A DNA stretch of 40,270 bases, taken from positions 1 to 40,270 of the forward strand of contig CALGNN010000046.1 in assembly GCA_937961455.1 (NCBI GenBank). The letters are read 5' to 3'. Made by a program: the position numbers and the translations under genes. Source of the DNA: an uncultured Saprospiraceae bacterium (GTDB taxonomy: Bacteria; Bacteroidota; Bacteroidia; Chitinophagales; Saprospiraceae). How positions within the stretch are numbered: position 1 is the first letter of the stretch; the number at the start of each line of letters is the position of its first letter. Positions 31,124 through 39,277 of the stretch are shown piece after piece. The notes under the pieces were generated by a model. That model searched no databases. It was not told the origin of the DNA and saw only the letters and a program-made list of their open reading frames with translations.

Positions 31124-32455
31124 ATGTTAGTAATTATTGCTCAGTTCTTTTTGAGCTTGTCCATATTAGTAGTCCTGCACGAGTTAGGTCATTTTTTACC
31201 AGCAAAATGGTTTGGAACCAAGGTGGAAAAATTTTACCTATTTTTTGATCCATGGTTTTCACTTTTCAAGTATAAAAAAGGAGAAACAGAGTATGGTGTT
31301 GGTTGGCTTCCTTTGGGAGGATATGTCAAAATTGCTGGAATGGTTGATGAAAGCTTTGACATGGATCAAATGCAAGGAGAACCTCAAGAGTGGGAATTCA
31401 GATCCAAGCCAGCTTGGCAAAGACTTATAATTATGTTGGGCGGAGTCACGGTGAATTTCTTATTAGGCTTTTTCATTTTCGCCATGTTACTATTCAAGTT
31501 TGGGGATAAATATTTGCCTAGTCAAAATGCGACTTATGGTATCGCAGTTGATTCTATCGGATATGATTTGGGCTTAAGAGATGGAGACCAAATATTGAAG
31601 GTAGGCTCAAAAGACTTTGATAAGTTTAGCGCAGGAGCACTCAAACAAGAGATCATTTTCAATGAAGCAAAAACCATCTTGGTCAATAGAGGTGGACTAG
31701 AGGTAACACTGCCTGTCGCAGAAGATTACGGTAAAAAATTGGCTAGTTATGATTATAGTGAATACCGGGTATTTGCACCAAGAATGCCTTTTGTCATAAG
31801 TGAATTCAATAAAAATTCGCCTGCTGAAAAAAGTGGTGCAAAAGTCAATGATAAAATTGTAGGTGTTAATGGTCAAAGAACAGATTATTTCAATGAGTTT
31901 GCCAAGTATGTAAAAGGTCTTGATGATCGCAATATCAAATTGATGGTACAAAGGGATGGAGACATCAAAGAACTGGATGTTGAAATGACTGAGAATAATT
32001 TGATCGGCGCAATTGCTAAGCCTGCATTTGATTTATTTGAAACAGAAACGCAAGACTTCACTTTTGCAGAATCATTTCCTGCTGGATACAAAAAAGGAAT
32101 GGATTTCATTAAATCTCAATTGAAGGCTTATGGCCTTATGGCAAGAGGTAAGTTGAGTATTAATGACAGTTTGGGTGGCTTTGGTTCTATCGCCAAATTA
32201 TTTCCACGAGTTTGGGATTGGCAGATATTTTGGAGAATGACAGCGATTCTATCATTAATACTAGGTTTCATGAATTTGCTTCCTATTCCAGCACTTGATG
32301 GTGGACATGTAATGTTCTTAATGTGGGAAATGCTAACTGGTAAAAAACCAAGTGACTCTTTCATGGAAAAGGCCACCTTAGTTGGATTTATATTAATTAT
32401 AGCACTTGTCCTTTATGCAAATGGATTGGATGTTTGGCGAGGTTGGTTTAAATAA
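31124..32455 (+). CDS. rseP: Site-2 intramembrane metalloprotease RseP
   Basis: The 443-residue protein is an S2P protease. The zinc motif HELGH is at residues 19-23 in the first membrane segment, and the second active-site motif NLLPIPALDGGH is near residue 385 in the last third. Between them lie membrane segments and two PDZ-like regions, the clearer being SPAEKSGAKVNDKIVGVNGQ. RseP-type enzymes cut membrane-bound anti-sigma factors and signal-peptide remnants. It lies 8 bp before hscB and shares its operon. It is about 7 kb from the sigma factor/membrane-TPR pair at 37984-39277; a functional link is conceivable but not shown. Confidence 0.95.
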   Translation: MLVIIAQFFLSLSILVVLHELGHFLPAKWFGTKVEKFYLFFDPWFSLFKYKKGETEYGVGWLPLGGYVKIAGMVDESFDMDQMQGEPQEWEFRSKPAWQRLIIMLGGVTVNFLLGFFIFAMLLFKFGDKYLPSQNATYGIAVDSIGYDLGLRDGDQILKVGSKDFDKFSAGALKQEIIFNEAKTILVNRGGLEVTLPVAEDYGKKLASYDYSEYRVFAPRMPFVISEFNKNSPAEKSGAKVNDKIVGVNGQRTDYFNEFAKYVKGLDDRNIKLMVQRDGDIKELDVEMTENNLIGAIAKPAFDLFETETQDFTFAESFPAGYKKGMDFIKSQLKAYGLMARGKLSINDSLGGFGSIAKLFPRVWDWQIFWRMTAILSLILGFMNLLPIPALDGGHVMFLMWEMLTGKKPSDSFMEKATLVGFILIIALVLYANGLDVWRGWFK

Positions 32456-32463
32456 AAAGTAGC

Positions 32464-32976
32464 TTGGAAAATTTCTTTGCCTTTTATGATCTTCCTTTTA
32501 GTCTACATGTAGATCAAGGACATTTACGCAAAAAATTCTATGAATTCAGCCGTAAGTATCATCCAGATTTTCATACGCAAGCCTCAGGTGATGTTCAGGC
32601 TGAAATCCTCCACAAATCAAGCTTGAATAACAAGGCATTCGAAACTTTAGCTGATCAAAATAAAAGAATCAAGTACATTCTTGAATACAAGAATCTACTG
32701 GTAGAAGGGAAAAATGCCATCCCTCAAGATTTCTTGATGGAAATGATGGATTTCAATGAAACGCTTATGGAATTGGAGATGGATTTTGATCTCGAAGCTA
32801 AAAGCTTATTACATCAGAATCTCACAAAACTTTCTGAAGAATTATTTCAATCCATAAGGGAACTAGACGAGCCCAATATAATCCTTGATGATGCTTCGCT
32901 AGAAAAACTAAAGGACTATTATTTAAAAAATCAATATCTAAAGAATCTATTCGGAAAGCTCGAGGAACTGTCTTAA
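32464..32976 (+). CDS. hscB: Fe-S assembly co-chaperone HscB
   Basis: The 170-residue protein has an N-terminal J domain with the HPD motif at 33-35 (SRKYHPDFH) and a C-terminal HscB oligomerisation domain of helical hairpins (KRIKYILEYKNLLVEG, PQDFLMEMMDFNETLMELEM). It hands the Fe-S scaffold to the Hsp70 HscA. The start is TTG at 32464, 8 bp after rseP, giving the family's usual beginning (xNFFAFYDLP). The A-type carrier gene is about 11.5 kb away and no scaffold is present in the window. Confidence 0.93.
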   Translation: MENFFAFYDLPFSLHVDQGHLRKKFYEFSRKYHPDFHTQASGDVQAEILHKSSLNNKAFETLADQNKRIKYILEYKNLLVEGKNAIPQDFLMEMMDFNETLMELEMDFDLEAKSLLHQNLTKLSEELFQSIRELDEPNIILDDASLEKLKDYYLKNQYLKNLFGKLEELS

Positions 32977-33000: not shown

Positions 33001-35892
33001 TTAATTTTTATTTGAGCGTTTACGAAAGGCTAAAAAAGACAGCAGCGCAAAAAGGCATAAAATCACATATCGCCAAATACTTGGCAAACCAGACTTTACA
33101 TTATACGCTGATTGGTCTCCTATCACCGTCCATGCTGCCCAATAGACGGGCTTGCGAAATGCAGGACTGCTTAGTTTATCATTGCTTAGATATTCCAATT
33201 GTGCCAATTGCATAGCGCGGTCTTTGGTAAATCCTTTTTTCAAAAATCGATAATACTCCAACATGATTTTTTTACTGGATTCATCAGATATACTCCAGAG
33301 GCTTGCTACAACGCTCGGCACACCCGAATAAAAAACCGCTCTTGCAAGACTGTTTAAACCTTCACTGATTCGAAAAGGTCCAAGTGCTGTATTGCAAGCA
33401 CTCATTACAAACATTTTTGCTTTCAATTTCATTTGATACAACTCATGTAAATGAAGAAAATTATCAAGTGTATCTCTCGTTTTGGTAAATAACAAAGATG
33501 ATTTATTTTTCTGATCATAATCCACAATGGAGTGTGTCGCAATATGGATAAAATCCGCTTGAGTAATTTCATTCAAAAAATTCGCTCTTGTTGCTTGTTC
33601 ATTCAACCAAGCTTTCCCATCCATCATTTCTGCAATTTCTTTTGCCTCATCATCAGAGAAAGGAAGGTTGGTCAATTTACCTCCTCGAACGATTTCGTTT
33701 ACTGAGGCATTCTCAATGCTATCTTGACTCAATTGATCCAAATAATCCAAAGTATATTTATCGAATTCTAGTCCAAAACTTACAAAGTTGTTATTCCAAT
33801 TATTTTGAAGTTCTTCATCTAAAATCATCCCAGCATAAAATGCATAACTTATAGAATAGTCGGTGATTAAATAATTATCTATTTGATCCCAAGTGCTTGT
33901 TTCACTTCTAAGAAAGGCTTGAAAAGGAATGGTATGTAAGGGACCATCTGGAATAATTCTTATACGAATTAAGCTTGAATCATTATAATGACTTATAGTT
34001 GATCCCAATAAAAATTTATAAAGTTCATGTGAACTATTCACAAACTGAGCTTCAGCAATTGCAGTAGAATCATTTACAAAATCCAGATCCGTAAGAGATT
34101 TTCTAAAATCTTTAATCCATGAATTAATTAAGGGAGGAATGGGCTTTTGTTCAACAAAAAATGAGTCTTGAGTCAAACTAAAAATGTAACAATCTTTTTC
34201 CCCAAGAAAGTATTTAATCAATAGCGTATTTGCATCTAAATTGCTTTGAAGCTCATCGACTGAAGCAATATTAATTTCATCTTCTAGCTGCGAATACAAA
34301 GGATAATTCTCCCTAATAAATTGCTCCTTCCCTGCTATTTCTTTTTTCAAATCAAAAAGCTTTGCCCGCTCTTCACTAACTGTATCCACAGAAAGTCCCG
34401 CCACTAAAGTTTCTTGATAATTTATTTCTTTTTGGATTTGATTGACTTCATCAATTAAACTATCCGGTACTTCAGCTGCTATCAAGGCATCCTCTTGAGC
34501 AACCATCTCCCTTAAAACAAATGCATTAGCTTTTTGACTTGCCTCAAAAGCTTGTACTTTCAAACTACTGTTATTGGTATTTGTCCCAGCAACTAAATTG
34601 GAAGAAATCAAGTCTTCAAAAAATGGATGTGTATAAGAGCCAGACACTAATTTAGATTCTGTCCCATCATAATTTTGCTTTATTATTTCGATAAGATCCA
34701 CTGAAGCTTGGTAATGGTCTCTGGCTAAATTGAGATCTGAAACATCTTGGCTAAGTCTGTACTTTTCTAAAAAAATATGCGCCTTCTCTCTAAACACTTC
34801 CATCAACCAGATTTCCTTCGTCCATAAATTTTTTGAAGGAATAACAATAGGATCTGCATTATCAAAAGCATCTAAAAAATTTATTAGAGCCTCTTGGATA
34901 TAGGATAATGCCAGGTCAAGATTGCCATTTTTACTTTCCGCTAATCCTTTCAAATAAACAAATTTAGCATACTCCCTTTTACTCCCTAAAGCTTCAAAAT
35001 CATTTTGAATTTCTTGTAATAGCAATAATGCCTCAGTGGGATTGTTTTGCTTCAATAATATTTCTGCCTTGTGTTTTTTAAAATAATAACATGGATTATC
35101 AACACCAGAAGATTCACATAAGTTGATAGCTTGATTATTTAAGGCCAGTGCATTAAGTAACTGATCTCTAGCTAAAGCATATCGGGCACGCGTCATTTCA
35201 ACGGAGCCATCTTTTGGATCATAGATCGCGACTTGTTTATTTGTAATAGCTTCTGCATCATCAATTGCTCCCTTATAAAAATAAGCATCAGACAAATTTT
35301 GATAGTTACCGTAAACGCTTCCAGTGTTATTCATTGATTGGTATAAGAACACACTTTCAGAGCAGTAGTCAATGGCTTTTTCATAATCACCTAGCATGAT
35401 GTAGTTGATGCCTAGATTGCCGAACAAGTATGCCATCCATGCAGTATCATTTTCTTGAACAAAAGATGATAGTGCTGATTCGTAATTGTTCAAAGAAGGA
35501 AAGAGCTCACCAATTTCATTATATGAAAATCCTAAAAGACTTTGCATTCGACCAAATAGTCCTTGCTCAGATTCAGGAAATATTAACAATGAACTGTCAA
35601 TCAAATTAATGGCAGCATTATGATTGGAACTAGCAGCTTCATAATCATACCATACTCGCACAGCTTTATAAAAAAACAACCAATAATTATCAGCTTCAAA
35701 AGAAGCCATTAGCGTTTTAGCTTTTTGTTTTGCCAGAGGAATATCTGCTCCTTGAAATAATAATTCCAGACTATCAATACTTGCTTCTGCTAAAATGCTA
35801 TCCTGGGTTGATTGAGCATAAATATATCTTGGGCAGGCTGACAGTACAATCAGAAAAACAATACTTGCAATAGCTTTAGTTAGATAGCTCAT
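33001..35892 (-). CDS. Exported TPR-CHAT (caspase-like) protein with C-terminal membrane anchor
   Basis: From ATG 35892 the protein has 963 residues. Residues 1-27 are an export signal; LSAC could be a lipobox, or cleavage may follow YAQ. Residues about 60-420 are TPR-like helical repeats (for example YLFGNLGINYIMLGDYEKAI). A coiled linker follows. The C-terminal third is a CHAT domain: the histidine block IHIATHSIV (H787), then MFVMSACNTALG (C833), and the closing VASLWSISDESSKKIMLEYY. H and C form the presumed caspase-type dyad and are both intact. The end carries a membrane segment (about 939-957) and a basic tail. The signal and stop-transfer tail imply that TPR and CHAT face the periplasm. 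A frame to 35976 would hide the signal. It lies in a module with a T9SS protein, a sigma factor and a membrane TPR protein. Confidence 0.9.
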   Translation of the reverse strand: MSYLTKAIASIVFLIVLSACPRYIYAQSTQDSILAEASIDSLELLFQGADIPLAKQKAKTLMASFEADNYWLFFYKAVRVWYDYEAASSNHNAAINLIDSSLLIFPESEQGLFGRMQSLLGFSYNEIGELFPSLNNYESALSSFVQENDTAWMAYLFGNLGINYIMLGDYEKAIDYCSESVFLYQSMNNTGSVYGNYQNLSDAYFYKGAIDDAEAITNKQVAIYDPKDGSVEMTRARYALARDQLLNALALNNQAINLCESSGVDNPCYYFKKHKAEILLKQNNPTEALLLLQEIQNDFEALGSKREYAKFVYLKGLAESKNGNLDLALSYIQEALINFLDAFDNADPIVIPSKNLWTKEIWLMEVFREKAHIFLEKYRLSQDVSDLNLARDHYQASVDLIEIIKQNYDGTESKLVSGSYTHPFFEDLISSNLVAGTNTNNSSLKVQAFEASQKANAFVLREMVAQEDALIAAEVPDSLIDEVNQIQKEINYQETLVAGLSVDTVSEERAKLFDLKKEIAGKEQFIRENYPLYSQLEDEINIASVDELQSNLDANTLLIKYFLGEKDCYIFSLTQDSFFVEQKPIPPLINSWIKDFRKSLTDLDFVNDSTAIAEAQFVNSSHELYKFLLGSTISHYNDSSLIRIRIIPDGPLHTIPFQAFLRSETSTWDQIDNYLITDYSISYAFYAGMILDEELQNNWNNNFVSFGLEFDKYTLDYLDQLSQDSIENASVNEIVRGGKLTNLPFSDDEAKEIAEMMDGKAWLNEQATRANFLNEITQADFIHIATHSIVDYDQKNKSSLLFTKTRDTLDNFLHLHELYQMKLKAKMFVMSACNTALGPFRISEGLNSLARAVFYSGVPSVVASLWSISDESSKKIMLEYYRFLKKGFTKDRAMQLAQLEYLSNDKLSSPAFRKPVYWAAWTVIGDQSAYNVKSGLPSIWRYVILCLFALLSFLAFRKRSNKN

Positions 35893-36129
35893 TGCATCAT
35901 GATAATTTATATATCCTAATACAATTGATTGAAATGGAATCTGGTGACAATCTATGTTGACTGCTTGTAAGAGCAATTAGTGGCAAAATTGGCCGAAGAA
36001 ATTCAACTATAATTTTTGTCATAAATCTAAATCAAGGGATTAATAGTAACTATATAAAGCTCAAAGTCTTGAAATGTGACATTGTAGTAAAGGAATAAAT
36101 ATTCAGATCAGCCTATTGCAATAGAACGC

Positions 36130-37659
36130 TTATATTTTCATAAACTTTTCTACTTGAATTCCATCTGCTGATTCAACTTTAATTATATACATACCTTCTG
36201 GTAACTCATTCAACAAATAAGTATTTCTAAACTTGCCTGAATAGTTTGAGTTATCAAATAATACTTTCATGATTTGGCCAGAGCTATTCAATAAACTTAC
36301 CGTCAATCCTCTATGGCTTTTGTTGTCCTGATTAAATTCTATTGAGATCATTTCTTCAACAGGATTCGGGAATATTTGCAGCGCTACTTGCTCAACTTGA
36401 GCAGTTACTGAAACTGCATTAATATTTGCAGCAGCATTACTCATATTATTATCAATTGTAAATGCATCATTATTATTTCCTCTAGGCTTGCATGATTCAG
36501 ACTTGCAAACGGTAGCAACTGGTGTAACGATCGGTGGCAAATTATCAAAATAAATGCCGGCTACATTATCCACACAATCACCCGGAGATAAAGGCTCTGT
36601 TTTAATTTTAAACTTTATCCAAGATGTACATTCTTCTAATGAAAAAGCATGTGGTATTTCTTGATTGGTTCCAGGTAATTTGATACCAGGCAATTCTACA
36701 TTTAACACATTCCCATTCAATGAAACATTCGCTGGATATTCTGAATCTATGAAGGTAAATGTGCTTAAATCGAATTGTGATGACAATGCATCTTTTATCA
36801 ATACATCTGTTGCATAAGTTTCACCATCATTGAAAAAACTTATGGTGTAGGTCACTTCATGTGCACTTTGACTCAGATCAAAACATGGAGGTTCTGGTCT
36901 TTTAACATTTGGGTCATGAGGAAATAGGGCTACTTCAAATTCGGAACTTTCCTCGAATACTTGATCTGAGCACCCAGGTCGCATAACCGTGTTGAAAATT
37001 ATAGGCTCTGGAGCCTCTACAGTTGTTAGTGTAGGAATGTAAACATATCTAACTTCCCCAAAAGCCAAATCTTCAAATTCCCAATTGAAAGATCTATTAA
37101 GTCCCTGATAAGGAGAACCATTTCTAATTCTGTTAAAAACCCAATTGTTATATTCTAATATTTGGTTAGCAATAGGTCTTGTTTTTCTTGAAAAATAATG
37201 GAATTCCACGCATCCATCTATCGCTGTTTGCGAAAAGTTATTTTGAAAAGCTAATATGTAAAAATTTGTTGTTCTGAATGAGGGAGACCAGGAGGTAAAG
37301 ATCTTTGTTTTTTCATCGAACATGGGCACAGGATTTATATAACTAGCACCTGTCCCAGTTGCTCCAGTTGAAACAGAAAGTTTAGGAGGATTATTGGGTT
37401 TGTAAGGTTTTACGAAATAAGTTGTAGTGGTAAAACCATCATTATCTTGAACAAATTTATGTTTAGGGTTTTCTATGGTAGAATAGTATCCGTCACCAAA
37501 TAAAGTAAAGAATAAAGTACCTGGATCGGTGGATGTTGTAGTATAATTTACTAGACCACCACTGTTACTTTCTATGATTAAATCATCAACCTGTCCAAAA
37601 AGTGATAGGTGAGATATGCAGATAAAAATGATTACAAAATTCGGCCAAAACTTTCCCAT
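36130..37659 (-). CDS. T9SS-exported surface protein with DUF11/DUF7619-like domain
   Basis: From ATG 37659 the protein has 509 residues. It has a signal peptide (IIFICISHLSLFGQ), then about 230 residues without known domain, then a DUF11/DUF7619-like region: EVTYTISFFNDGETYATDVL, IKDALSSQFDLSTF and CTSWIKFKIKTEPLSPGDCV. The last 83 residues (427-509) are a type A T9SS sorting domain: LQIFPNPVEEMISIEF, SLLNSSGQIMKVLFD and NELPEGMYIIKVESADG. The protein should be exported through the outer membrane and anchored at the surface. It lies 237 bp before the CHAT gene on the same strand. A hairpin with a T tract stands in its leader. ATG 37659 gives a normal signal peptide; the frame runs further to 37749. 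Confidence 0.88.
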   Translation of the reverse strand: MGKFWPNFVIIFICISHLSLFGQVDDLIIESNSGGLVNYTTTSTDPGTLFFTLFGDGYYSTIENPKHKFVQDNDGFTTTTYFVKPYKPNNPPKLSVSTGATGTGASYINPVPMFDEKTKIFTSWSPSFRTTNFYILAFQNNFSQTAIDGCVEFHYFSRKTRPIANQILEYNNWVFNRIRNGSPYQGLNRSFNWEFEDLAFGEVRYVYIPTLTTVEAPEPIIFNTVMRPGCSDQVFEESSEFEVALFPHDPNVKRPEPPCFDLSQSAHEVTYTISFFNDGETYATDVLIKDALSSQFDLSTFTFIDSEYPANVSLNGNVLNVELPGIKLPGTNQEIPHAFSLEECTSWIKFKIKTEPLSPGDCVDNVAGIYFDNLPPIVTPVATVCKSESCKPRGNNNDAFTIDNNMSNAAANINAVSVTAQVEQVALQIFPNPVEEMISIEFNQDNKSHRGLTVSLLNSSGQIMKVLFDNSNYSGKFRNTYLLNELPEGMYIIKVESADGIQVEKFMKI

Positions 37660-37983
37660 AGTTGAGTACTTAAACTTTACGCAATAAAATATAATAATAG
37701 TGAAATTTAAGTGAAAAGGGGTACCCAAGGTAAAAATTAGTGACAACAAAAGTTGCCACTAACCATTGGGAAAGTAAATGACCGATCAACAACGATCATT
37801 TCTTTTGCAGTCATGTTCTCAGCTTTCTCAAAGACATGATTTATTTCTCAAATCTGCACTATATAGGGTATAAGGATAAAATGAATGAAATGTGACAGGA
37901 ATAATGTAAATTAATTTTTCATCATACAAATTTGTCACGTTTGCATGATTTAAAACTTATACAGTGAATTCAATTGGGAGTAA
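37660..37983. other. Divergent regulatory region of the CHAT/T9SS and sigma/TPR gene pairs
   Basis: No coding frame is evident. The region contains a hairpin with a T tract (37731-37761), an inner repeat CGATC-AACAA-CGATC (37783-37797) and a short palindrome ACAAATTTGT (37926-37935) next to TTTG elements. No full -33/-7 pair with 19-bp spacing could be fixed for either direction, which is compatible with promoters read by an alternative sigma factor. Confidence 0.5.
37731..37761 (-). terminator. Terminator-like hairpin in the leader of the T9SS gene
   Basis: TAGTGACAAC (37738-37747) pairs with GTTGCCACTA (37752-37761) with one mismatch. On the minus strand it is followed by ATTTTTA, as in an intrinsic terminator. 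It lies about 80 bp before the start codon at 37659. It could be a leader attenuator, or a stop for transcripts running from the sigma-factor side. Confidence 0.5.
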
Positions 37984-38577
37984 ATGAATATCCGCAAAGC
38001 AACAATCACTCAACTATCAACAAGTGAGAAAAAGAACTTTGGTTTGGAAGAATCAGAATTCAATACCATGCTTGCTCATATGCAAGCAGGTGATGATCGA
38101 TTATTTGAGAAAGTTTTTTTAAGTCATTTTAAAGATTGCATGAATTATCTGAAAAATTCTTACAAGAGTTCACAATCAGAAGCTTATGATGCAAGTATGG
38201 ATGCCTTATTAGCATTTCGTAAAAGGATGCTAGAAGGTAAGGTCAAGTATGGAAATATGCGATTCCTTTTTACAAAAATGGCTTCTCAATACTTAATGGC
38301 TTCAAAAAAGAAAAGTACATCAGAATATCTTGAAATAAAAGACTTGCGGCTTGATGATCAAGAGCTCGATAACGATGTCATGAAGGCTTTTGACAAAGCA
38401 TGGGAAAAACTACCACATGAGAATAAAAATGTTTTGGAACAATTTTATTACAAAAAAACACCGCTTAAAATGATTGCCGCTACAAAAAATATTACAGAAG
38501 CTGCAATGAGAAAGCAAAAACAGCGCAGTATGGAAAAATTAAAAAAATACTTATTGGAACATTTACCAAGCGCCTAA
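37984..38577 (+). CDS. Sigma-70 family (ECF-type) RNA polymerase sigma factor
   Basis: The 197-residue protein has region 2 at about 20-105 (FNTMLAHMQAGDDRLFEKVF, then SEAYDASMDALLAFRKRM and NMRFLFTKMASQYLM) and region 4 at about 140-193 (AWEKLPHENKNVLEQFYYKK, TPLKMIAATKNITEAAMRKQ, then KQRSMEKLKKYL with the helix-turn-helix). There is no region 1 or 3, so it is of the extracytoplasmic-function kind. The gene for a single-pass membrane TPR protein begins 19 bp after its stop, the usual place for an anti-sigma factor. It is divergent from the T9SS and CHAT genes. The promoter it reads is not known. Confidence 0.9.
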   Translation: MNIRKATITQLSTSEKKNFGLEESEFNTMLAHMQAGDDRLFEKVFLSHFKDCMNYLKNSYKSSQSEAYDASMDALLAFRKRMLEGKVKYGNMRFLFTKMASQYLMASKKKSTSEYLEIKDLRLDDQELDNDVMKAFDKAWEKLPHENKNVLEQFYYKKTPLKMIAATKNITEAAMRKQKQRSMEKLKKYLLEHLPSA

Positions 38578-38596
38578 TCAATTGAAAGCAATAGAC

Positions 38597-39277
38597 ATGA
38601 CAACTTTTAAAGATTTTTTATCATCAAATTCAGAGGACCCAATAATGGAATCTTATAGTGAAAAAATTATAAGCAACAAACTTGATCGTGATAGGAGAAA
38701 AAAATATGAACAAATTCTTAAAGAAGAATACAATGTAAGCAAGGAAGAACAAAAAGCTGAATCCTTTTCTTTAAAAAAATGGATGTCTATTGCTGCTTCG
38801 GTCATTGTGTTAGCTGGTTCATTTTATTTTTTAAATCAACCTACTAAGACAAGTCCTAAAGAATTAGCACAGGCAGAAATAGCTGAATTGCATATCATGG
38901 CTGATCAATCTGTGATGCGAAAAGGCGCAGCAGATTTTGAGGAAATCCGAAAACAAGCCAATCATTTTTATGTAAACGGAGATTATCAAAATGCGCTTGA
39001 ACAATGGCAACTACTAGAAGCTGACCAGAAAACCAATGAGCGCGATTATTTGTATAAAGGGATCTGTTATTTAAAGTTAGGTGATTCAACACGCGCACTT
39101 GAGGTGCTTGAAAAAATTGAATCTGCAAAAGGTTTTGAACTAGAGTGGAATTGGGTAATTGCATTAGCTCACCTTGATACAAACTCAACCGATAAAGCAC
39201 ATATTCATCTATCAAAGCTAATCAGTGAAGGAAAATATAAAGTAGCGGAAGCGAAGCAATTGATAGAGGCGATATAA
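38597..39277 (+). CDS. Single-pass membrane TPR protein, anti-sigma-like position
   Basis: The 226-residue protein has a charged cytoplasmic N-terminus of 61 residues (DRDRRKKYEQILKEEYNVSK), one membrane segment at about 62-79 (WMSIAASVIVLAGSFYFL) and an outside TPR region from about 115 (EIRKQANHFYVNGDYQNALE, YLYKGICYLKLGDSTRALEV, AHLDTNSTDKAHIHLSKLI). The topology is that of single-pass anti-sigma factors, with the cytoplasmic piece free to hold the sigma factor encoded just upstream. No sequence match to a known anti-sigma domain is seen, so this is inference from topology and position. ATG 38597 is preferred to TTG 38582. A strong terminator follows at 39371. Confidence 0.85.
   Translation: MTTFKDFLSSNSEDPIMESYSEKIISNKLDRDRRKKYEQILKEEYNVSKEEQKAESFSLKKWMSIAASVIVLAGSFYFLNQPTKTSPKELAQAEIAELHIMADQSVMRKGAADFEEIRKQANHFYVNGDYQNALEQWQLLEADQKTNERDYLYKGICYLKLGDSTRALEVLEKIESAKGFELEWNWVIALAHLDTNSTDKAHIHLSKLISEGKYKVAEAKQLIEAI

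Follow-up and report, generated by a model that had tools for sequence, protein, structure and literature searches.

Here, we describe four neighboring genes in a 40,270-nucleotide stretch of DNA from an uncultured Saprospiraceae bacterium (GenBank assembly GCA_937961455.1, contig CALGNN010000046.1, positions 1 to 40,270 of the forward strand; called the window throughout). They encode a tetratricopeptide repeat (TPR)-CHAT protein, a protein exported by the type IX secretion system (T9SS), an extracytoplasmic function (ECF)-like sigma factor and a membrane TPR protein, and they belong to a set that recurs in many Bacteroidota and is almost certainly a real functional module. Our preferred reading is a switch made of the sigma factor and a membrane anti-sigma factor, which periplasmic proteolysis would trigger, with the CHAT protein as the likeliest trigger here; we give this account close to an even chance. 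The host assembly is a 4.62-Mb draft in 250 contigs. The four open reading frames (ORFs) that the original prediction had picked out at 33001–39277 are all present in the ORF list, with domains that fit. The features of the module are as follows.

33001–35892, minus strand: TPR-CHAT protein, 963 amino acids from its ATG (PF12770, 178.7 bits; hydropathy; alignment with four paralogues)
33115–34035, minus strand: CHAT domain (profile match)
33532–33534, minus strand: codon of the predicted catalytic His, H787 (invariant in five paralogues and in 71/71 linked homologues)
33394–33396, minus strand: codon of the predicted catalytic Cys, C833 (alignment)
36052–36081, minus strand: candidate sigma-dependent promoter toward the CHAT gene, TGTCAC-N18-TTATA (two mismatches to the first pattern)
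36130–37659, minus strand: T9SS-exported protein with DUF7619 and a type A sorting tail (PF24595, 1.7e-20; PF18962, 6e-10; TIGR04183, 1.2e-10)
37868–37897, minus strand: candidate sigma-dependent promoter toward the T9SS gene, TGTCAC-N17-CTTATAC (motif)
37933–37962, plus strand: candidate sigma-dependent promoter toward the sigma gene, TGTCAC-N17-CTTATAC (ends 21 bp before the ATG)
37984–38577, plus strand: ECF-like sigma factor (TIGR02937, 46.1 bits)
38597–39277, plus strand: single-pass TPR protein, putative anti-sigma factor, with a cytoplasmic N-terminus, a transmembrane segment and periplasmic TPRs (Pfam, hydropathy, model)
38918–38920, plus strand: conserved basic residue R108 (numbered from the ATG) in the periplasmic linker, candidate cleavage site (alignment)

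The likely ATG starts lie at 35892 (CHAT, minus strand), 37659 (T9SS, minus strand), 37984 (sigma, plus strand) and 38597 (TPR, plus strand). Measured from these, the shared divergent region is 324 bp long (37660–37983) and the sigma and TPR genes are 19 bp apart, both as first described. On the left side, 237 bp separate the CHAT and T9SS genes, which are not obviously a single transcript. The TIGR02937 score of the sigma factor is above the cut-off of 42.9, and its Pfam region 4 match falls under the cut-off for that family; the membrane TPR protein matches TPR families, one of them (ANAPC3) barely above its cut-off.

Recurrence of the gene set across genomes

Conserved adjacency in Bacteroidota genomes, which the original prediction had proposed to look for, is found in the host genome, in a sample of 14 genomes and among 247 genomes of the phylum. 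Four of the five CHAT genes of the host adjoin a sigma-TPR gene pair: besides the window, the CHAT gene on C64 is divergent from its pair, and those on C68 and C140 are convergent with the TPR and sigma genes, with overlapping ends. The fifth, on C142, has no such pair adjoining. The host and 13 relatives chosen for assembly quality together gave 127 CHAT hits and 70 TPR-partner genes (E up to 1e-6, with rows above this value excluded and split hits merged), and 39 of the 70 partners lie within 7.5 kb of a CHAT domain.

For a closer view of gene order, we fetched 100 regions around CHAT genes, leaving aside the weakest 22 of the relatives' 122 CHAT hits, and 80 named loci. Seven of the 100 regions are repeats, L085, L089 and L092 gave no counted CHAT, and neither did L181 among the 80 named loci. 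With identical proteins counted once per set and two CHATs common to both sets, a sigma gene with a TPR partner after it lies within four genes of 40 of the 97 unique CHATs in the first set, which includes the host's other four CHATs (three linked), and of 31 of the 87 in the second. The sigma gene occupies slot −3 in 14/90 CHATs and slot +2 in 9/90; at slots five to eight genes away, no more than three CHATs per slot have one. Divergent, convergent and co-directional layouts all occur.

At the scale of the phylum, we used A9, a profile of the first 145 residues of the TPR partner, the rows of which come largely from CHAT loci and which may favor the linked subfamily. A CHAT is present in each of the 28 genomes in which A9 matches most strongly (E up to 7.1e-14), as against 95 of the other 219 (Fisher 6e-10, with kinship ignored and 9 of the 28 genomes in one genus). 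Among the best 50 A9 matches, 36 are within 8 kb of a CHAT, where 0.66 would be expected; outside the host genome the count is 33/46. The linked loci include metagenome-assembled genomes labelled Pyrinomonadaceae (Acidobacteriota; L191) and Aliifodinibius (Balneolota; L177). A plasmid of Emticicia oligotrophica (L237, NC_018743.1 11987–31417) has genes for a hypothetical protein and a sigma factor divergent from those for three hypothetical proteins and a CHAT protein, and profiles confirm the sigma, TPR-partner and CHAT families there. This plasmid module lies beside DUF262, recombinase, Fic and IS1 genes.

Both families are abundant, with 45 sigma-like genes over the cut-off in the host genome (hand count) and CHAT in 56 of the 61 genomes of the family sample, so that chance neighbors are one conceivable explanation. 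We rejected it as extremely unlikely: such adjacency is far commoner than chance would make it (39/70, 40/97, 36/50), and the co-divergence and the subfamily motif described below speak against it as well.

Distances among paralogues point to co-divergence of the three proteins. In 66 modules, with one CHAT per pair, we compared paralogous modules within five genomes (109 pairs), and the distances correlate at 0.70 for sigma and TPR, 0.65 for sigma and CHAT and 0.70 for TPR and CHAT (permutation p 0.0005). When pairs with a sigma distance under 0.6 or 0.7 were dropped, the correlations were 0.44–0.55 and 0.29–0.38, respectively, all with p ≤ 0.013. Because the paralogue distances correlate in this way, the genes for the sigma factor, the TPR protein and the CHAT protein tend to be duplicated together and to diverge in step. 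Sigma-TPR pairs without a nearby CHAT were also seen at L220, L221, L222, L225 and L232; they share a directly upstream lipoprotein gene, one family by eye, which we take to be DUF4837 and which suggests a second conserved context for such pairs.

The CHAT protein itself is a predicted protease with an intact dyad. Its PF12770 score compares with a curated Pfam cut-off of 24, and TPRs accompany the domain. H787 and C833 were both confirmed at the positions first given, and the dyad is conserved in homologues: in addition to the invariant His, linked CHATs keep the Cys in 69/71 (the other two rows fall outside the alignment), and unlinked CHATs keep the His in 112/113 and the Cys in 111/113 (two outside the alignment). 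A search of the whole protein with phmmer gave 13 matches, all of them TPR proteins.

The same protein had been described as periplasmic, and its signal-like N-terminus is in keeping with this; a free, soluble state does not fit. Only two segments are found by hydropathy: the N-terminal one is signal-like, with a lipobox-like LSAC visible by eye, and a basic tail comes after the C-terminal one. In view of this C-terminal segment, which the four paralogues of the host genome apparently share, as judged from their alignment, we regard the protein as anchored rather than soluble; together, the two segments argue for export. By a hydropathy rule, both segments are found in 55/67 linked and 82/106 unlinked full-length CHATs. 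Genes for an RseP-like M50 protease with PDZ domains and for an HscB-like protein adjoin the CHAT gene (31124–32976 of the window), and a site-2 protease at this place would suit the relay proposed below.

Surface gene and candidate promoters

The original prediction had placed the T9SS gene in the module, and this is supported by recurrence and by a shared motif. Among genes directly upstream of, and co-directional with, a CHAT gene, a T9SS tail is present in 20/42 at linked CHATs (window included) and 5/49 at unlinked ones, compared with 4/60 background genes (Fisher 4.7e-6 for 19/41 vs 4/60, and 2e-4 against 5/49). These figures cover 49 of 53 unlinked genes, four open-ended ones being omitted, and 60 of 110 sampled background genes. 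Subtilase domains occur in 10/42 linked and 3/49 unlinked upstream genes and DUF7619 in 7/42 and 3/49, and neither is among the 25 background families listed out of 91. In the eight modules with the sigma factors nearest to that of the window (28–47% identity; five from G016), the gene before the CHAT gene is always on the same strand and always has a T9SS tail, with DUF7619 in five cases and a subtilase domain in three; the gaps to the CHAT gene are −4, −4, 8, 37, 52, −79, 165 and 362.

Two linked CHATs have immediately before them a gene that matches the thiol-activated cytolysin family at about 125 bits (L037:6446–8269 and L063:10883–12742). Contents of this kind bear on the idea of an envelope conflict or cell-death module, in which the CHAT protein would activate a secreted effector (a subtilase, a cytolysin-like protein or a repeat protein) and the sigma factor would raise its dose. 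The upstream subtilases and cytolysin domains (2/42) fit such a role, as do the plasmid module near DUF262 and a Fic gene and the caspase-ECF-DUF1822 neighborhoods, which section 9 of PMC8195603 interprets as conflict systems. Against it stand the T9SS tails in 20 of the 42 upstream genes and DUF7619, which is no known toxin domain, in seven. In PADLOC, the sole hit was a weak one of the sigma factor to DpdE (E 0.011), on which ground we rejected an identity as a defence system, and we regard a conflict module as very improbable.

The divergent region carries TGTCAC-N17-CTTATAC once on each strand, before the sigma gene and before the T9SS gene, and a third copy with two mismatches precedes the CHAT gene. 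Chance would give 0.52 matches in the window, and 2 of 100 shuffles reached three; the pattern had itself been derived from two of these three sites. Genome-wide, this first pattern is not enriched (23 vs 25 in controls). A refined pattern, partly fitted to the window sites, is matched perfectly four times in the genome, three times of these in the window, and at one mismatch 11 times vs 5 in controls. In the eight nearest modules, TGTCAC followed after 16–19 bases by TTAT lies before the sigma gene in 5/8 and before the CHAT-side genes in 5/8, with at least one site in 7/8, and in 0/57 other modules (Fisher 6.8e-6 each, the modules not being independent). Eight permuted hexamers yield 0–1, as against 11 for TGTCAC. 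The cut that delimits the window-type sigma subfamily (sigma distance 0.73) was set after the first results had been seen.

The promoter evidence has to be weighed against the way in which it arose and against two null results. The motif was spotted by eye, after the fact. A mismatched-module test of 28 modules, not steered by the window motif, gave means of 9.93 vs 9.82, and an equally unsteered test of 24 divergent modules gave a Fisher p of 0.97 (0.02 for the window). As both were null, we rejected promoter sharing as a general property of the modules and hold it only for the window-type sigma subfamily.

Eight other sites match the refined pattern: four stand before genes with a signal-like start (by eye), one of which has a weak outer-membrane-barrel match under the cut-off, three are inside ORFs and one, at the end of a contig, has no ORF after it. 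A further perfect site of the first pattern precedes the gene for a T9SS leucine-rich repeat protein. Together, these outside sites are at most a candidate regulon. At L263:514–5901, a one-mismatch site precedes genes for two exported-looking proteins, one of 578 amino acids that matches no Pfam family and one that is very large (>1148 amino acids).

The membrane TPR protein and its candidate proteases

Hydropathy finds exactly one hydrophobic segment in 77/78 TPR partners, near residue 85, and the mean net charge is +2.9 in the 15 residues before it and −0.9 after it, a positive-inside pattern. The protein of the window also has one segment, modelled as a helix at residues 64–84. TPR families dominate among the Pfam matches of the 78 partners (25 of 166 families listed), and the 50 PDB matches listed for the whole model look like TPR proteins, except one named BamD. 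The zinc-finger family of many anti-sigma factors, zf-HC2, matches 11/78 partners at E up to 0.5, with a best value of 2.8e-5. A short partner in L139, first taken for a natural truncation, turned out to be cut by the end of the locus.

The paralogue on C68 has a cytoplasmic domain (residues 1–77) predicted as three helices, with a predicted local distance difference test (pLDDT) score of 93. A Foldseek search of this domain against 350,542 PDB chains listed RsiW, RsiW, MucA, RslA, ChrR and MucA first, and VIA-align superposed it on RsiW with a Z of 7.5 over 69 residues at a root mean square deviation of 3.9, below the decisive level for helical bundles. A TPR partner is the next gene after 80 of the 97 sigma hits that have a downstream neighbor, mostly overlapping or within 50 bp, the place expected for a class I membrane anti-sigma factor; the profile behind this figure was seeded with such pairs. 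We consider it very probable that the TPR protein is an anti-sigma factor. We nevertheless call it only putative, because the paralogue scores are weak (Foldseek E 1.2–4.1 and probability 0.93 to 0.38 for the six matches) and the N-terminus of the window protein is, as in its nearest relatives, shorter and modelled at pLDDT 61–84. These points tell against the assignment, as does the fact that the fold match belongs to the paralogue and not to the window protein.

In the linker between the transmembrane segment and the TPRs, one alignment column is R in 63 and K in 20 of 88 proteins, and the next residue is S or G in 66/88. The remaining linker columns are at most 15% basic, and 15 shuffles of the linkers gave a best column of 0.31–0.36 vs 0.93 observed. 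The corresponding residue in the window is R108, in SVM-R-KGAAD, a loop in the model, and from the alignment the conserved Arg/Lys is a plausible candidate cleavage site. A CHAT-specific cleavage motif is not supported, as the basic residue is about as frequent in pairs without a nearby CHAT: R[GS] in 12/23 CHAT-distant vs 35/66 linked pairs, and [RK][GS] in 15/23 vs 53/66.

Other proteases are encoded at some of these loci. After the fifth sigma-TPR pair of the host (C140, far from the CHAT gene; L206:8568–11098) comes, on the same strand, a gene for a trypsin-like protein with a PDZ domain. Used as a query in all fetched loci, this protein found nine similar genes, eight of them directly after a sigma-TPR pair; once overlaps were merged, the eight are five distinct genes, one in the host and four in G003. 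The G003 loci with the trypsin-like gene (L028:5029–6324, L036:5248–6579, L046:12742–14040 and L066:5527–6846) also hold a CHAT. Of 24 pairs in 31 CHAT-distant regions, only the host pair has the trypsin-PDZ gene, and no trypsin-like gene follows the window pair among the window ORFs. The trypsin-like genes support protease control of the TPR family but offer a rival cutter: a serine protease may be the cutter at the G003 loci and, because such genes directly follow some TPR genes, the CHAT protein is not the sole candidate. The original proposal that the CHAT protein cuts the TPR protein and frees the sigma factor has thus gained a candidate cleavage site, but the site also occurs in pairs without CHAT and trypsin-like genes stand in some modules. 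On account of these genes, we slightly lowered our estimate that the CHAT protein cleaves the TPR protein, from about even to somewhat short of it.

The main rival to a CHAT trigger is that the CHAT protein is an output. Another protease, HtrA/DegS-like or trypsin-like, would then switch the sigma-TPR pair, and the CHAT protein would process or police the T9SS protein. This would agree with the motif that the CHAT and T9SS genes of the window have in common with the sigma gene, with the closeness of the two in five of the eight nearest modules (the gaps from −4 to 52: −4, −4, 8, 37 and 52), with the basic linker site in pairs without a nearby CHAT, and with the trypsin-like genes after five distinct pairs, including the trypsin-PDZ gene of the host. 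It agrees less well with the absence of a trypsin-like gene after the window pair and with the co-divergence of CHAT and pair, all layouts pooled, and we hold it to be rather unlikely. A non-proteolytic scaffold, in which the TPRs of the CHAT protein and of the anti-sigma factor bind each other or T9SS cargo and binding releases the sigma factor, would make use of the TPRs that both partners have outside the cytoplasm; the dyad kept in 69 of 71 linked CHATs, with the other two outside the alignment, and the strongly conserved linker residue make it improbable.

The preferred reading, a CHAT-triggered sigma/anti-sigma switch, also has to accommodate several contrary observations besides the linker counts in CHAT-distant pairs, the five distinct trypsin-like genes directly after sigma-TPR pairs and the null results of the unsteered motif tests. 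No pair lies within four genes of 57/97 CHATs, and G021 and G056 (14 CHATs each, of which 14 and 13 were examined) have no linked pair. On the Emticicia plasmid, the TPR partner is without the basic linker residue (by eye) and the CHAT protein as annotated is without a signal-like N-terminus. Sigma binding, cleavage, the order of events and the signal are what we infer, and for binding and cleavage this also counts against the reading.

A proposed relay and its relation to known systems

The recurrent module, its co-divergence, the dyad, the topology pattern and the shared motif are results of computation, and the relay that we propose would run as follows. Through the helical domain at its cytoplasmic N-terminus, the TPR protein would keep the sigma factor tethered to the inner membrane, as the family fold and the gene coupling suggest. 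The TPR domain would face the periplasm, where, from the predicted topology, the tail-anchored TPR-CHAT protein would also sit. Some cue, which might be the condition of the T9SS surface partner or its export, would activate the CHAT protease, and the protease would then cleave the TPR protein at the conserved Arg/Lys-Gly/Ser of its exposed linker. A site-2 protease might then free the sigma factor, by analogy with RseA. In the window-type subfamily, TGTCAC-N18-TTATA would serve the sigma factor as promoter of its own operon, of the T9SS gene and of the CHAT gene, and perhaps a few other exported proteins would also be in its regulon. Still more tentatively, at somewhat less than even odds, we envisage widespread, multi-copy relays in the envelope of Bacteroidota in which a CHAT protein anchored in the inner membrane acts as site-1 protease on a TPR anti-sigma factor at Arg/Lys-Gly/Ser in the periplasm. 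Each module would have its own sigma factor, inhibitor, protease, surface protein and promoter code, and CHAT and trypsin-like proteases could replace each other as inputs.

The closest parallel is the type III-E Craspase system, Csx29-Csx30-CASP-sigma, associated with clustered regularly interspaced short palindromic repeats (CRISPR). As far as the accessible part of its description goes (PMC10028731), it likewise combines a TPR-CHAT protein with a His/Cys dyad, a sigma inhibitor and an ECF-like sigma factor; the sigma-binding motifs lie within its own locus, and the inhibitor Csx30 is cut in a flexible loop, in which no essential residue was found. It differs in that Csx29 is activated by target RNA via Cas7-11 (PMC10028731, same part), whereas the CHAT protein of the window appears exported and anchored and has a T9SS partner. 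A Pfam scan of seven window ORFs near the module found no Cas7-11/gRAMP. Because there is no CRISPR effector among the scanned genes and the protease looks exported, we do not file the module as a Craspase.

RseA/DegS/RseP-sigmaE, RsiW and MucA are single-pass anti-sigma systems with two-step proteolysis. The module resembles them in its single-pass protein, in the similar fold of the cytoplasmic domain (in the paralogue), in the two steps of proteolysis that it would be expected to undergo and in the trypsin-PDZ gene after one host pair; it is unlike them in the periplasmic TPRs of the window protein and in that CHAT stands in place of a PDZ serine protease. The proteolysis route of RseA is described in the accessible part of PMC10028731.

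The EACC2-caspase neighborhoods also bring together a caspase-like protease, an ECF sigma factor and a TPR-containing protein, but their constant elements are EACC2, a caspase domain and DUF1822, with no T9SS cargo described in section 9 of PMC8195603. The 25 Pfam families listed, of 166, for the TPR partners do not include DUF1822. On a plasmid of the cyanobacterium Stanieria cyanosphaera (L240:6157–11498), a CHAT gene is convergent and overlapping with DUF1822, a layout like that of the convergent Bacteroidota modules, and no sigma factor is annotated at this locus. PorXY-SigP of Porphyromonas gingivalis similarly links an ECF sigma factor to T9SS function, but takes a two-component input, and the available part of its description (PMC7712824) mentions no CHAT protein or TPR anti-sigma factor. 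A search of titles and the beginnings of abstracts, with most subscription journals outside it, found no published description of a Bacteroidota CHAT-sigma-TPR module.

By analogy, the module may be a counterpart, independent of CRISPR, to the logic of Csx29-Csx30-sigma. It connects caspase-like proteases, ECF sigma factors and T9SS surface display, and the conserved linkage, the candidate cleavage residue and the candidate promoter render each step testable. For the many periplasmic CHAT proteins of Bacteroidota, it offers a testable role.

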